Below the pieces are notes generated by a model. It ran no database searches and was not told the origin of the DNA. It saw nothing but the letters and a program-made list of their open reading frames with translations. Below, in pieces: positions 1-5,960 of a stretch of 5,960 nucleotides of DNA (positions are counted from its first letter, which is position 1; the number at the start of each line of letters is the position of its first letter). Position numbers and translations under genes: made by a program. The DNA comes from a bacterium (GTDB lineage Bacteria > ARS69): contig JALGZR010000154.1 in NCBI GenBank assembly GCA_025774805.1, positions 1 to 5,960 on the forward strand, in the 5' to 3' direction.

Positions 1-429
1 ATGATCCGCCTCCTCGAGGATGGCTGCGACGTGGTCATCGGCTCGCGCCTGCGGCGGGATGCGGACACGACGCGCAGCCTGAAGCGCGAGATCCTCTCGC
101 GCGGCTACAACCTCATGGTGAAGCTGTTCTTCGGAACGCACTTCACCGACGCACAGTGCGGATTCAAGGGAATCCGCCGGGCCGCGGCCCGACGGCTCGT
201 TCCTCACGTGGAGGACCGAAAGTGGTTCTTCGACACCGAGCTCCTCGTCCTCTCGGAGAAGTCGGGCCATCGAATGGGCGAGGTGCCGGTGGACTGGATC
301 GAAGATCTCGACACACGCGTCCAGCTCCTAATCACGATCTACGACGATCTCTCCGCACTCTTCCGGCTGAAGGGGTCGTTGAGACGCGTTCTGGAGCGGA
401 TCGCCCATGAGGGGGGCCCGGCGAGCTGA
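1..429 (+). CDS. GT2 glycosyltransferase, polyprenyl/dolichyl-phosphate glucosyltransferase-like, C-terminal part (5' end outside window)
   Basis: The visible 142 residues match the second half of GT2 enzymes of the dolichyl-phosphate beta-glucosyltransferase/mannosyltransferase (ALG5/DPM1-like) type, which move a sugar from a nucleotide donor to a polyprenyl phosphate at the cytoplasmic membrane face. Visible landmarks are DVVIGSR (residues 10-16), a basic stretch leading to RGYN (34-37), the hallmark DAQCGFK (50-56), WFFDTELL (75-82) and EVPVDW (94-99) followed by ED. The nucleotide-binding N-terminal half, with its DxD-type motif, is not in the window. The ATG at position 1 is therefore probably an internal methionine, not the start. 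No membrane segment follows the catalytic domain, unlike versions fused to GtrA-like or other membrane domains. The last 23 bases overlap the preferred start of the next gene, suggesting translational coupling. Family is fairly certain; the exact sugar and lipid are inferred. Confidence 0.87.
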   Translation: MIRLLEDGCDVVIGSRLRRDADTTRSLKREILSRGYNLMVKLFFGTHFTDAQCGFKGIRRAAARRLVPHVEDRKWFFDTELLVLSEKSGHRMGEVPVDWIEDLDTRVQLLITIYDDLSALFRLKGSLRRVLERIAHEGGPAS

Positions 430-1967
430 CGGTGGGGCGGGCGGCACCCTCCGCGCGGCCCTCCTCGCGTTCGGGCCTCTCGCCGCCGCCGTCGCGCTCA
501 CCCATCTCGTGGCTCGTCTCGACGGGACCTCGTTCGCCGAGGCCGTCCTCTTTCCTCGCCGTCGTCTTCGCCGGGGCGGGGATCTTCTTCTGCCCCGGTC
601 TGCTGCTCCTCCGAGCCTTCGATCTTCGCCTCCCGAACGCGATCACGAATGCGATCGCCTCCTTCGTGCTGTCGGTGGTCGGCGTGTCGCTCGCCTGGAT
701 CTTGGGGCGCGGACTCCTCGAGGGAGTCGGCAGTCGGGGCTGCCTCTACCTGACCGTCGCCGGGCTCGATGCCATGGCGCTCGCGGCCGCCGTCTTCTTC
801 GTGCCGGGAGCCCGCGCACTGCCGGTGCTCGCCCCGCCGTCCGCCGGGCGCGGCCGGGCCGAGCTCATCATCCCCGCGTGCGGTGTGCTCCTGGCGCTGG
901 CCGCAGGATGTCTTCTCTTCCCCGGCAAGCTCACGATCGAGGCGCTCTCCGGGGAGGCGGCCGGGGTTCGTGCTCTCGGGGCGAGCCTGTTCAGCCATGC
1001 GCTGCCGCAGGGACCTCTCGCTTCGGGCTCGTGGGGCTTCCACCCCGTGTTCCCGGGCGAGGCCTACCCCGTCTTCTTCTCGCTGGCCGTCGTGGGGCCG
1101 TGTGAAGCGGCGGTGCGGCTGCCCGCCCTCCTCTTCCTCGGGCTCACGATGCTCTCGGTCGCCGACCTCGCCGCCCGGGGGCGTTCCCGCGCGGCCGGAG
1201 GGAGTCTGAACTTCCTGCTGCCGATCCTGGTGACCGGGTTTCTCTCGATGCAGGTCGGGGCCTGGTACGCGGGTCACGATCCCGGCCCGGGGGACCTCGG
1301 CGGCCTGCCCCGGACCCAGTGGCAGGCGACCGCGCTCGCTCTCGGCGCCCTTCTCCTGCTGCGCGATCGGACTCCCCCTCTGGCGGCGCTCGCCGGTCTC
1401 CTCGCCACAGCCGTCTTCCCCGTCGGATCACTCCTGGTCGGGCTCCTCGTCATCGCGGGGATCGCGTTCGGATCGGCCCCGGATCGCCAAACCATGGGAC
1501 GGGCCGGGATCGTCTTCGCCGGAGCGCTCACGGGGCTCGCGCTGGCCTTCACGGTCCGGGCGGCGGTGACGGGCACCTGGGACCTGAGGATGCCCGAGGG
1601 ACCGAGCGCCCTCGGGAGAGAGACCGGCGTCGGCGGAGCGGTCGGCCGGATCGGATCCGCGCTGGGGACCTTCGGCATTCTGGGTGGCGGTCTCGCGCTG
1701 GCCGGGCTGCCCCTCGCGCTCTGGAGGGGGGACCGCATGGCCCGGTTGCTCGCGAGCGTGGGGGCGGTGTGGGCACTCGGGGTCCTGGCCACCCCCGCGC
1801 GCGGCGTGCACCTCTTCCTGCCGATCGCTCTACTGCCCCTCGCCGCCGCGCTCCGAACGGCGGCGGTCGTCTCTCGGCGACGACGCGGCGCCCTTCTTCT
1901 CGCCGGCGCGCTGACCCTCTCCGCCCTCGCCTGTATCGTGCTCTCCCGCCCGCCGCCGGCTCCGTGA
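407..1967 (+). CDS. Polytopic membrane protein, possibly GT-C-like, with an apparent frameshift near 551-553
   Basis: This is a very hydrophobic protein with roughly 11-14 predicted membrane segments, for example around FLAVVFAGAGIFF, ASFVLSVVGVSLAW, LLVGLLVIAGIAFG and HLFLPIALLPLAAAL. An uninterrupted frame can be read from a GTG at 432 (511 residues), but its first 40 residues are Arg/Pro/Ser-rich and look like out-of-frame translation. The frame from ATG 407 instead gives a convincing first membrane segment (LRAALLAFGPLAAAVALTHL) and then a DGTSFAEAVLF loop, but turns Arg-rich right after position 553. Dropping one T from the run 551-553 joins the two into AVLFLAVVFAGAG and a protein of about 519 residues. 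ATG 407 has GGAG at 393-396 and overlaps the upstream stop by 23 bases. Architecture and the PGLLLLRAF segment recall large bacterial GT-C/DUF-type envelope proteins, but I see no clear catalytic Asp/Glu loop motif. Function is unassigned; a role downstream of lipid-linked sugar synthesis is inferred from context. Confidence 0.75.
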
Positions 1968-2001
1968 GCTTGTGGGATTCTGCACGCGATCCGGATCGTC
2001 T

Positions 2002-2040
2002 TATCATGTTCAAAAAGGTCCTGACGAGGATGTGAACATG
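2002..2040 (+). promoter_or_regulatory. Possible -10 box overlapping an 8-bp inverted repeat upstream of the first sulfotransferase
   Basis: A perfect inverted repeat CATGTTCA (2005-2012) and TGAACATG (2033-2040) is separated by 20 bases. Its left arm overlaps TATCAT (2002-2007), one mismatch from the sigma-70 -10 consensus. The best-spaced -35 candidate, TCTGCA at 1979-1984, is poor. If TATCAT is a real -10, the repeat covers the start-site region, a typical place for a repressor operator. It could also be a chance repeat or a leader hairpin. The sulfotransferase ATG at 2056 has only a weak AGG ribosome-binding signal at 2048-2050. Confidence 0.28.
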
Positions 2041-2055
2041 CTAACCTAGGTTGCT

Positions 2056-2754
2056 ATGAAGATCCCTACGGCTGCCTATGGTCTATATCGTCAGTTCTTC
2101 TGGCGTAATCCTATTGCCTATCGGTTCCTGCCTGGTACTCGCATATACCGGAAGCTGTATCGGGAATCCTATGATGCATGGATTACCGGCTACCCGAGGT
2201 CGGGCAATTCCTATGGCGCAGAATCGTTGCGCCGCGGCCTCGGTCCTGGGGTCAACGTCAGCTCACACTGCCACAATCCGGCGTTCGTGAAACACGCGCT
2301 GAGTCACATGAAACCGGGCATTCTTCTGATTCGAGATCCAGTGTCCACTGTTATCTCGAATTCCATCTACACCGGTCATTCCCTGGTCCATGAAATGCGG
2401 CGATGGATCGATTTCCATACGATACTCCTTTCTTTGCGCAATCGAATCGATGTCCTGCCTTTTCCTACACTGATTGAAGCCCCGGATTCGTTCTTCCGGC
2501 CCTGGGCCCGGCGAAACTCCTTCCCTTACCAGGATCTGCCCGAAAGCCCGGAAACGGTCCGGTCCATCCTTGTCGGCATTGAGGAGAGAGCACCACGAAA
2601 TACTTCCGGAGAGATTGACCAAGACAAAGTCTCCCTCCCTTCGCCACATCGCAATGACAAGAAGCGAGAGCTTCGGCGTTCTTTCGAAGCGAGCGATCGA
2701 CTTCGCGCTCTCGCGGTGGCGGCAGAAGCCATATATGAAGAGTTTGCTGGTTGA
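2056..2754 (+). CDS. Sulfotransferase family protein (PAPS-dependent type), complete, 232 aa
   Basis: Predicted to transfer a sulfo group from PAPS to a hydroxyl or amino acceptor, probably a glycan or lipid. The 5'-phosphosulfate loop appears as TGYPRSGNSYG (44-54), a bacterial variant of YPKSGTTW with Arg for Lys. HCH (71-73) sits where the catalytic histidine is expected. The 3'-phosphate-binding motif is LIRDPVSTVIS (91-101), with R93 and S101 as likely binding residues. The C-terminal VSLPSPHRNDKKREL resembles the closing segment of the same family. There is no signal peptide or membrane segment, so it is probably cytoplasmic. At 232 residues it is at the short end of the family but looks whole from N- to C-terminus. 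GC is clearly lower (47-58% in sampled lines) than in the preceding gene (about 75%), suggesting separate acquisition. It stands alone on the plus strand, with its own upstream gap of 88 bases and a convergent neighbour downstream. The acceptor cannot be told from sequence. Confidence 0.85.
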   Translation: MKIPTAAYGLYRQFFWRNPIAYRFLPGTRIYRKLYRESYDAWITGYPRSGNSYGAESLRRGLGPGVNVSSHCHNPAFVKHALSHMKPGILLIRDPVSTVISNSIYTGHSLVHEMRRWIDFHTILLSLRNRIDVLPFPTLIEAPDSFFRPWARRNSFPYQDLPESPETVRSILVGIEERAPRNTSGEIDQDKVSLPSPHRNDKKRELRRSFEASDRLRALAVAAEAIYEEFAG

Positions 2755-3004
2755 TCGAGCTTCTGATCTCCCGCCGCGGCCGTACCATGCACGGCAGCGA
2801 GATACTGGATGTGGTGGAAGCCTGTCCCGGAGACCGGGGCAGGGGAGATTCCAGCGGGCATCTTGCCAATCAGAAGATCATCGAGGTGCCTATCCATCGG
2901 ATCGGGCTTGGTGGCGGTGTTTCATCAACGAAGAGGCCCGTGAAGCACCCGCCCACCCGGTCATTGGGAGAGTCTGACCTGGCCGCGCACGGTACCACCC
3001 CCGT
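2755..3004. other. Convergent intergenic region without a recognised gene
   Basis: This 250-base gap separates the 3' ends of two genes that point at each other, so both need transcription stops here. The main visible structure is the hairpin at 2821-2843. A TTG-started frame (2751-3008, 85 codons) overlaps the sulfotransferase stop as TTGA and stays open, but its product is low in hydrophobic residues, matches no family I know and ends inside the last codons of the opposing gene. I do not call it a gene. No tRNA, CRISPR repeat or insertion-sequence end is visible. Confidence 0.6.
2821..2843. terminator. Strong hairpin between convergent genes, candidate bidirectional terminator without a U-tract
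   Basis: CCTGTCCCGG (2821-2830) and CCGGGGCAGG (2834-2843) pair over 10 positions, with one T-G wobble, around a three-base AGA loop. The stem is very GC-rich and begins 66 bases past the upstream stop codon, between two genes that converge. Neither strand shows a run of T after the stem, so it is not a classical intrinsic terminator. It could still stop or pause transcription, or protect transcript 3' ends. The structure is seen directly; the function is inferred from position. Confidence 0.42.
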
Positions 3005-4183
3005 CTAAATCAACCCGGCCAAACCCTTGTACAAGTTCCTCTGAAACTGCTCCCGGCTGAATTTCTGAACGTGTCTCTGGGCTCTTCGAGACATCTCCCG
3101 CGACTCGGGCCTTCCGAACATGTCGATCACGTCCCTCGTCTTCCGTCGCATCTCCGATTCATTGGAGAACAAGTACCCCGACACGCCGTCCTCCAGCACC
3201 TCCAGCTGTCCGGCTCTCGCCAAGACAACCGGAATGCACCCGGCGCTCATCGCCTCACACGTCGTGATCCCGAAGTGCTCGAAGCGCTCCGGAAACCACC
3301 TCTCACTTTCCCCCCATCCCGCCGCGTGCCAGAACACACTCGCCTGGTGATACTCCCTCCTGAGATCGTCAAACGAAGCGCCGGCCAGAACTCGGACCGG
3401 GTACCCTTTGGCGAGCTCATTCACTCTTTCGAAGTACCGGACGTCATTTCGGCTTTCCCGGTGGACGTTCCCCACGAGATGGTATTCCCAGCCGGCCGGA
3501 ATCTCCCCCTCATCGACCATCGTCCGAAACACACGGATCATTTCCAGATGTTTCTTGCTGTGGCCCCGGGCGAAGAACCGTCCCACGCTCAAGATGACCT
3601 TCCTCTTTTCGTTTTCCGGAGGGGGAGCGAAGACCTCGGTGTCCACGGGAGGTGCGACAATTCGGCTCTCTCTCTTCCAGCGCGTCTTGATCCAACGGGT
3701 CGTGTACCCGGAAATGGACAGGATCCGATGATACGAATCCAGGAACATGCCGGTGCTTCGGTGGGCCAACCGGTAGATCTCTCGTCCGAATCGAGGGAGG
3801 ATGGGCTGCATCGCCTTTCCGGCGACCATGAACGGCCTGGCGACCCACCGTGGACCGACCCGATGGGGAAAGAAGACCGCGAGGACGGATCTCTTCGCCT
3901 CCGAGACGAGGGAGGTCCGAAAGCTGGCATTGACGAAGAGGTCGTACTCTTCGGTGTGCGGCGTCAACTCGATGTCGTGGGAGGGGGGTAGACTCCGAAA
4001 CGAGGTCCGTGACCAATCCAGATGAAGTCGCCGGGCGAGTTCCTCCACATCCGGTTCGCGCAGCGGATCGACCCCAAGGAGCTCCACCTCATGGTCTCTG
4101 CTCAGGCACTCCGCCAGCAGGCCCGCGTACTTCTCCCCACCCCCGCATGTGCTCCAATACCGATTCCAAACCGCGATCTTCAT
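3005..4183 (-). CDS. GT4 family glycosyltransferase, ALG11-like flavour, complete, 392 aa
   Basis: This is a retaining GT-B enzyme that adds a sugar from a nucleotide donor, probably to a lipid-linked or nascent surface glycan on the cytoplasmic side. The N-terminal Rossmann half opens with MKIAVWNRYW and the glycine-rich CGGGEKY (13-19). The linker VAPPVDTEVF (176-185) leads into the donor-binding half, which begins VILSVGRFF (196-204), followed by the K210/K211 pair expected near the donor phosphates. The diagnostic EX7E motif is E302 to E310 within EHFGITTCE, followed by AMSAGCIPVV and EDGVSGYLF, all typical of GT4. The phrase around WFPERFEHFGIT recalls the ALG11 mannosyltransferase region. 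The 392-residue length is normal for the family and both domains are intact. The start ATG gives a textbook first beta-strand, although only a weak GGA lies just upstream. The 129-base gap before it (4184-4312) shows no clear promoter or terminator. Donor and acceptor are unknown. Confidence 0.9.
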   Translation of the reverse strand: MKIAVWNRYWSTCGGGEKYAGLLAECLSRDHEVELLGVDPLREPDVEELARRLHLDWSRTSFRSLPPSHDIELTPHTEEYDLFVNASFRTSLVSEAKRSVLAVFFPHRVGPRWVARPFMVAGKAMQPILPRFGREIYRLAHRSTGMFLDSYHRILSISGYTTRWIKTRWKRESRIVAPPVDTEVFAPPPENEKRKVILSVGRFFARGHSKKHLEMIRVFRTMVDEGEIPAGWEYHLVGNVHRESRNDVRYFERVNELAKGYPVRVLAGASFDDLRREYHQASVFWHAAGWGESERWFPERFEHFGITTCEAMSAGCIPVVLARAGQLEVLEDGVSGYLFSNESEMRRKTRDVIDMFGRPESREMSRRAQRHVQKFSREQFQRNLYKGLAGLI

Positions 4184-4312
4184 GATTCCGAAGAGAACGC
4201 CGAGTAGCGTGAGCTCACCCCGGAACGAGGATCGAGAGAACCGAAGGCCCGGAAAGACCGAGAACGGCTCGAGTATGGGAAACAGGCAAACGGACTCGCG
4301 GGCCGCATCGCG

Positions 4313-5046
4313 TCAATCGACCTCCCACCGGTCCAAGATCCCCGGAGGATGGGCCGTCCGGTGAATACAAGAATAGCGTGGAGGCTCGTAGTGATTCTCC
4401 GCGGTGAACGGAGCGGCGAAACTGTCCGCGACGAGGTCACTTCGAACGAAGAAAGCATTGACGCCGTTGAAGTCACACCCGACGAGGCGGTATCCGAGCC
4501 GATTGCCTAAGACCTCGAACGCCTTGAGACTCGCACCGAAGTTCTGGGTGCCATCCCACCGACGATCGGGAACGTAGTGGACCTTCCACTCGATGTCCGG
4601 GGGGACGGCGGCATTGTACTCCACGACGACGACCCGCGGTGAGAACTCGTGAAGAGCCTCCCACACGTGGTAAGTGTTCTGGTCGATGTCCAAGGAAAGC
4701 AGATCGATTTCCCTCGGAACCCCGAGCTTCTCCAGGTGCTCCGCGATGTTTTCCTTGTCCACGAAGAGCGCGGATGTGGTCAGACAACCGTTGGTGAGAT
4801 CCCGCCGTGAGGCGATCGTCCGGAGGAAAGCGTCGCTCCCGTCAATCCAGTATCCCTTCCACCCGCGGCTGATAAGGAAAGCGGTGTTGTTCTCCGTGCC
4901 TTCTCGGACTGGTGATAGCGCATCGCTTCCATCGCCCGCAGCTCTCGAATCTCGAAGTGGATTCGCTTGAGAAAAAGACGGATCTGGAGAAGCTCCCGGT
5001 ACAGTGGAAGGTAGCGGGCGATCTTGGCCAGCGTTCTGCTCGGCAT
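4313..5046 (-). pseudogene. FkbM-like SAM-dependent methyltransferase, frame-disrupted and missing SAM motif I
   Basis: The reading starts at ATG 5046 behind a strong GGAGGT and gives about 51 sensible residues (MPSRTLAKIARYLPLYRELL through RYHQSEKAR) down to about 4894. From about 4900 the natural sequence continues in another frame with GTENNTAFLI and runs 195 residues to the stop. The second part holds features I recall from an FkbM-like methyltransferase group: RGWKGYWIDGS, EIDLLSLDID, VVVVEYNA, RWDGT, GASLKA, YRLVGCDFNGVNAFFV and ENHYEPPRY. In relatives, a YSQNDEDG-like segment and the glycine-rich SAM-binding FVEFGxGDG precede ENNT. Both are absent here, and I see no copy elsewhere in the window, so an internal stretch is missing as well as the frame being shifted. 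DIDQNTYHVW also departs from the DIDGND I expect. If the sequence is correct, the protein cannot bind SAM normally. Its presumed role was O-methylation of a glycan. Family assignment is fairly sure; the deletion size cannot be measured here. Confidence 0.72.
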
Positions 5047-5050
5047 AGAG

Positions 5051-5056
5051 ACCTCC
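5051..5056 (-). promoter_or_regulatory. Shine-Dalgarno GGAGGT fixing the methyltransferase start
   Basis: On the minus strand GGAGGT stands four bases before the ATG at 5046. It is the strongest ribosome-binding signal I found in the window. It shows that translation was meant to begin at 5046, in the frame of MPSRTLAKIAR, and not in the frame that holds the downstream catalytic part. It is therefore the key evidence that the methyltransferase is split between two frames. Confidence 0.7.
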
Positions 5057-5092
5057 GGACGAGCGGTCCGCGACGCGACATGGTTGAAGACG

Positions 5093-5131
5093 CGGCCGAG
5101 CCTCGGCCGAGGAGGGATCCCGGCGGGATCC
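5093..5131. repeat. Cluster of perfect short palindromes upstream of the methyltransferase
   Basis: Three overlapping or adjacent perfect symmetric elements are packed into 39 bases. CGGCCGAG (5093-5100) and CTCGGCCG (5102-5109) form an 8-bp inverted repeat with a one-base centre. CCTCGGCCGAGG (5101-5112) is an uninterrupted 12-base palindrome that competes with it. GGATCCC (5115-5121) and GGGATCC (5125-5131) form a 7-bp inverted repeat around GGC. They lie 46-85 bases ahead of the methyltransferase ATG. They could be operator sites or alternative leader-RNA hairpins. The symmetry is seen directly; any role is inferred, and high GC makes such palindromes easier to obtain by chance. Confidence 0.45.
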
Positions 5132-5206
5132 GGAGATTCCTCCGCTCTTCGCCGACGGGCTCGGGGGACACGCTGAACGCATGTCGACGTCACTCTGACG
5201 AGGGCC

Positions 5207-5235
5207 ATGACAGCGTCGCCATTTTGCCAAGTCAA
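5207..5235 (-). promoter_or_regulatory. Weak sigma-70-like promoter candidate for the methyltransferase
   Basis: On the minus strand TTGACT (5235 to 5230) is five of six for the -35 consensus. It is followed after exactly 17 bases by TGTCAT (5212 to 5207), four of six for the -10 but lacking the important second-position A. It would give a leader of roughly 150 bases that includes the palindrome cluster. A chance match cannot be excluded. Confidence 0.25.
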
Positions 5236-5427
5236 GTCCTATCTTCCGTCGCTGCGGGGAATCGGGAGGCCCCGAGCGGCCGACGACATTCCCGGAGAAG
5301 GTCGTGATCATTCCGGAAGCTCCGAGGGGCGTCCGATCTCCCGGTTCGAAGTGGCTCCACGAAACCCACTTCCATATACTGGGAGATCGCCCGGACTTGC
5401 CGAGGGTCGTACATCGGGAAAGGTATC

Positions 5428-5960
5428 TTGGAGCCGAGAGCATTCGTCGACCGCTACTGGGCGCTGACCGTCAAGCACGGGCGGACCGTCCTTCGCGGTC
5501 TGCGCCCGATAGCGATCAAGGGTCGATTCGTCGGGCCCCGGGTGCTCCTCAACAGCATGCCCAAGGCCGGTACCAATCTCCTCGAACATGCTCTCCTTCA
5601 CTTCCCGCTCATGCGCGGAAGTCCGTGGCGGACTCTGCGGGGCTGGAGTGGGATCGACGAGAAGACGCTCGACCGGGTGCGGAATATCCGACGGGGGCAG
5701 TACGTGACCGCCCATCTGCCGGCTCATGGGGACCTGCTGCGAGTTCTCCCGTCCTTGGATATCAAGATCCTGTTCATGATCCGCGATCCACGCGATGTGG
5801 TGGTTTCCCACTTCAAGTACGTCACGGAGATCGACCGGACCCATCGGGCGCACGAGCACTTCGCCTCACTGCCCGACGACGATGCTCGGCTGCTCGCGGT
5901 GATCAACGGTCTTCACGGAGTGGCCGCACCGGTCGGGGACGTGCTTCGGCGCTACGCGGG
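5428..5960 (+). CDS. Sulfotransferase domain protein, N-terminal part (3' end outside window)
   Basis: The first 177 residues of a PAPS-dependent sulfotransferase are visible. LLNSMPKAGTNLLEHAL begins at residue 40 and carries the 5'-phosphosulfate loop MPKAGTN with the usual K46. TAHLPAH (94-100) gives H96 as the likely catalytic base. FMIRDPRDVVVSHF (116-129) is the 3'-phosphate-binding motif with R119 and S127, closer to the canonical RDPRDVVVS than in the other sulfotransferase of this window. The only start codon in frame after the stop at 5305-5307 and before the P-loop region is TTG 5428; it has AAAGG (5419-5423) a suitable distance upstream. No signal peptide or membrane anchor is visible at the N-terminus, so a cytoplasmic enzyme is likely. 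It is transcribed away from the methyltransferase and differs clearly in sequence from the upstream sulfotransferase, so it is not a recent duplicate. The acceptor is unknown; a locus-encoded glycan or glycolipid is inferred. Confidence 0.87.
   Translation, partial: MEPRAFVDRYWALTVKHGRTVLRGLRPIAIKGRFVGPRVLLNSMPKAGTNLLEHALLHFPLMRGSPWRTLRGWSGIDEKTLDRVRNIRRGQYVTAHLPAHGDLLRVLPSLDIKILFMIRDPRDVVVSHFKYVTEIDRTHRAHEHFASLPDDDARLLAVINGLHGVAAPVGDVLRRYA

Follow-up and report, generated by a model that had tools for sequence, protein, structure and literature searches.

An FkbM-like methyltransferase gene without SAM motif I, probably a pseudogene, in a glycan-modification neighbourhood of a draft metagenome genome

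The window (i.e. the whole stretch of DNA analysed, 5,960 bp) is a complete contig of a MAG of 284 contigs and 5.1 Mb, with estimates of 96.3% for completeness and 5.06% for contamination. On its minus strand, a broken FkbM-like methyltransferase gene has as neighbours a glycosyltransferase gene (3005-4183, minus strand) and a sulfotransferase gene (from 5428 onwards, plus strand). The protein encoded at 2056-2754 (plus strand) displays a sulfotransferase-like P-loop (GYPRSGNSY) and an LIRDP motif, with no Pfam match. A gene encoding a hydrophobic membrane protein occupies positions 407-1967 (plus strand); it starts with the ATG at 407 and continues in another frame from about 553 to 1967, and this switch near 553 is probably a single-base frameshift or a sequence error. 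At 63.6%, the G+C content of the window (1-5960) is below the 67.2% measured across 318 kb of this MAG, whose codon usage is poorly matched by the minus-strand genes of the window. From G+C content and codon usage, the window (1-5960) may be either an acquired island or a contig placed in the wrong bin.

The N-terminal remnant of the FkbM-like gene comprises 51 aa (4894-5046, minus strand) and was delimited by translation and by ungapped alignment to the N-termini of two relatives, L005 and L009. Opened by an ATG, it translates as MPSRTLAKIARYLPLYRELLQIRLFLKRIHFEIRELRAMEAMRYHQSEKAR, that is MPSRTLAK...AMRYHQSEKAR (5046-4894), and a GGAGG ribosome site is retained about 7 nt upstream of the ATG at 5046. 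The C-terminal remnant (4313-4903, minus strand; EGTENNTAFL...DRWEVD) lies in a different frame. Its translation begins (E)GTENNTAFLISRGWKGYW... at about 4903 and remains open without a stop down to 4316, the stop codon being at 4315-4313. Translation confirmed in this way that the two halves occupy different frames of the minus strand (5046-4894 and 4900-4316), as the first-pass annotation had reported. The halves meet at the 7-nt sequence GGCACGG (4894-4900, minus strand), which can be read in one frame as the last residues of the N half (..KAR) and in the other as the first of the C half (GT..). Upstream of EGTENN, the frame of the C half reads SPVR, versus IGVG in the family, while the frame of the N half reads RTTPLS downstream of KAR, unlike family sequence. 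Read from the ATG, the product has 88 aa (4782-5046, minus strand), i.e. 51 native residues followed by 37 out-of-frame residues. The first in-frame start of the C half is the GTG at 4762, beyond part of the core.

We used the C half as query to scan contigs, which gave 30 relatives; with two more from viral contigs, 32 were available. The 30 belong to Planctomycetes, Acidobacteria, Proteobacteria, Bacteroidetes, Cyanobacteria, archaea and others, and the best relative is 65% identical. The match of the C half to L005 (E-value of 2e-84, 65% identity) excludes chance. Twenty-seven of the 32 relatives were aligned (alignment A1); L024 and L033 were left out, and L031 is cut off by a contig end. 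The Pfam family PF05050 (Methyltransf_21, FkbM) was matched by 10 of the 27 relatives (best E-value of 1.4e-7), in line with the FkbM-like assignment made initially. Searched against Pfam, the C half of the window gene itself gave no match, the cut-off of PF05050 not being reached. The closest relatives, L005 and L006, do not match PF05050 either, so the group of the window gene is a divergent FkbM-like subgroup. Sequence searches of PDB and NCBIfam returned nothing useful, and a literature search on motif loss in FkbM proteins found nothing specific. We then compared the AlphaFold model of L005 (pLDDT of 84.6, pTM of 0.83) with PDB structures: all 50 matches listed are SAM methyltransferases (SafC, CypM, COMT, KijD1 and others). 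According to this model, L005 is a class I SAM methyltransferase with a Rossmann-like fold.

Between the two halves, intact relatives read ...DPRYxDPKRLxxxxxVYSQNxEDGIIxEIFRRIGxxxxxFVEIGVGDG-xENNT.... This agrees with the segment that the first-pass annotation had named for this group (YSQNDEDG and FVEFGxGDG). In all 27 relatives of A1, motif I is retained and an S-Q-x-x-E-D-G...E-I-F-x-R...F-x-E block separates the N-terminal helix from ENNT, with Q71, E74, D75, G76, E80, I81, F82, R84, F92 and E94 invariant; L024 and L033 also have the SQxxEDG...FxE block. Two relatives are unusual. In L018 (Verrucomicrobia MAG, 1827-2594), about 30 residues including YSQNxEDG are absent in frame and motif I is kept. 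L034 (Trichodesmium, about 1650-2600) is itself a pseudogene, interrupted by several stops and frameshifts, and the segment is still visible in it. Close homologues also devoid of motif I, which would have spoken against a loss in the window gene, were sought among the relatives and none was found.

To estimate the size of the missing segment, the complete N half was placed on relatives with no gaps allowed; its best score was 38 on L005 and 40 on L009 (next-best offsets 1 and -11, respectively). On both relatives, the N half ends 18 residues ahead of the SQ of the YSQN motif. The unaligned middle between the two halves, whose measurement against full-length relatives had been advised, thus amounts to 48 residues in two independent ungapped alignments, i.e. 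144 nt plus the 7-nt overlap, or about 151 nt. Such a loss is of the form 3n+1 and therefore changes the frame. The N half is poorly conserved family-wide, but on L005 and L009 it can be aligned over its full length with no gap; its similarity has a z of about 6 against shuffles, for these two relatives only. Its assignment is supported more weakly than that of the C half. A deletion starting about 10 residues later, from a MAFFT alternative in which RYHQSEKAR corresponds to RYxDPKRLx, was rejected because only the 48-residue gap accommodates the entire N half on L005 and L009. This later start fits several more distant relatives across the last 9-12 residues of the N half. If it were true, the loss would shrink to about 38 residues (about 120 nt), and the conserved columns lost would be unchanged.

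The 13 columns between S70 and G96 with conservation of 90% or more among the 27 relatives all lie inside the gap, and SAM motif I, whose loss had been proposed, goes with them. The flanks are as well preserved as had been claimed: outside the gap, 41 of the 42 conserved columns are kept in the window gene (C half); for comparison, the count in intact members is 36-42 out of 42-44. The C-terminal blocks ENNT, GW.G.W, D.D.N, EYNA and FTAENHYEP are present; the YSQNxEDG block and motif I (F.E.G.G.G) are absent. On these blocks, the window gene descends from the FkbM-like family but, in its assembled form, is no functional member of it. The lost segment corresponds to about residues 52-99 of L005, with a helix (74-85) and the first core strand (91-96) leading into motif I. 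In class I methyltransferases without this segment, no ordinary SAM site can form. Judging from its sequence, the gene as assembled cannot encode an active methyltransferase. No second copy of the gene, missing fragment or PF05050 match was found elsewhere in the MAG. A search of the phylum's other four genomes likewise found no homologue that could have served as a close undeleted sequence for comparison.

We favour a true deletion in the organism, which would make the locus a recently inactivated gene for an FkbM-like class I SAM-dependent methyltransferase in a glycan-modification neighbourhood. This reading is probable, and its weighting against an artefact is a judgement and not a measurement. 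A single deletion of about 151 nt would have changed the frame and taken out the linker, the YSQNxEDG block with its helix, and motif I (FVEIGVGDG) together with the first core strand. It may have occurred between short repeats, GGCACGG being a possible 7-nt microhomology; the repeats now present near the junction are uninformative about the lost copy. Translation would start normally and give the 88-aa product, without a catalytic domain. Any loss is recent. In support of a true deletion, the sequence shared at the junction does not exceed about 7-10 nt, and another copy in the family (L034) is also a pseudogene. The small size of the contig (5,960 bp), the estimated contamination of 5%, the second probable frameshift near 553 and a C half without decay, as an artefact would also give, count against it. 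There is a small chance that a real deletion is polymorphic within the population, the glycan-modification gene being switched off and maintained as an off allele.

An artefact of assembly or library, with an intact gene in the organism and either misjoined contig ends or a chimeric fragment, is less probable and still a serious alternative. Both halves are undecayed, the C half being conserved as in intact relatives, and the same contig carries the other probable frameshift. Many pseudogenes of draft genomes are assembly errors (PMC11017572), a finding relevant to the window gene. In addition, apparent frame breaks counted with a coding-frame HMM reach 0.54 per 10 kb in the MAG (17 in 318 kb) versus 0.15 in the related genome G002 (3 in 200 kb; one-sided P of about 0.02), these breaks being unverified and the rates uncalibrated. 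At most, the difference hints at more errors or pseudogenes in the assembly of the MAG than in that of G002. However, a similar rate, also uncalibrated, was obtained for the fragmented genome G004 (0.48 per 10 kb; 2 in 42 kb). The minus-strand genes of the window, with a codon usage atypical of the MAG, could not be followed by the same HMM for that reason. Against an artefact, base-call errors do not cleanly remove about 151 nt, and the sequence shared at the junction is too short for the ordinary collapse of a repeat: the exact overlaps on which assemblers normally collapse are much longer than 7-10 nt. A functional protein, either shortened with the loss tolerated or split with the C half translated alone, seems very improbable. 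L018 lacks the YSQNxEDG segment in frame, but it still has motif I. For the C half, no in-frame start precedes the GTG at 4762, which would cut more of the core, and Q71, E74, D75, G76, E80, F92 and E94 are found in all 27 aligned relatives.

If the deletion is real, the proposal that this methylation step is inactive agrees with the lack of a backup copy in the MAG; that a glycan is the substrate is suggested by the adjacent glycosyltransferase and sulfotransferase genes and by family membership. Annotators should label the gene a probable pseudogene, and the conserved C half should not be taken as grounds for assigning glycan methylation to this MAG. A true deletion would represent one more surface-glycan modification gene lost, of little general importance. 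The locus is no new biological system; it represents a broken gene of an ordinary kind, or possibly a misassembly in a draft genome of metagenomic origin. It resembles FkbM-like proteins (PF05050, remotely) through the PF05050 matches of its relatives and the class I methyltransferase fold, and differs from them in being frameshifted, without motif I and without a Pfam match of its own. Nothing distinctive separates it from bacterial pseudogenes formed by internal deletion, with which it shares a sharp deletion, a change of frame and intact flanks.
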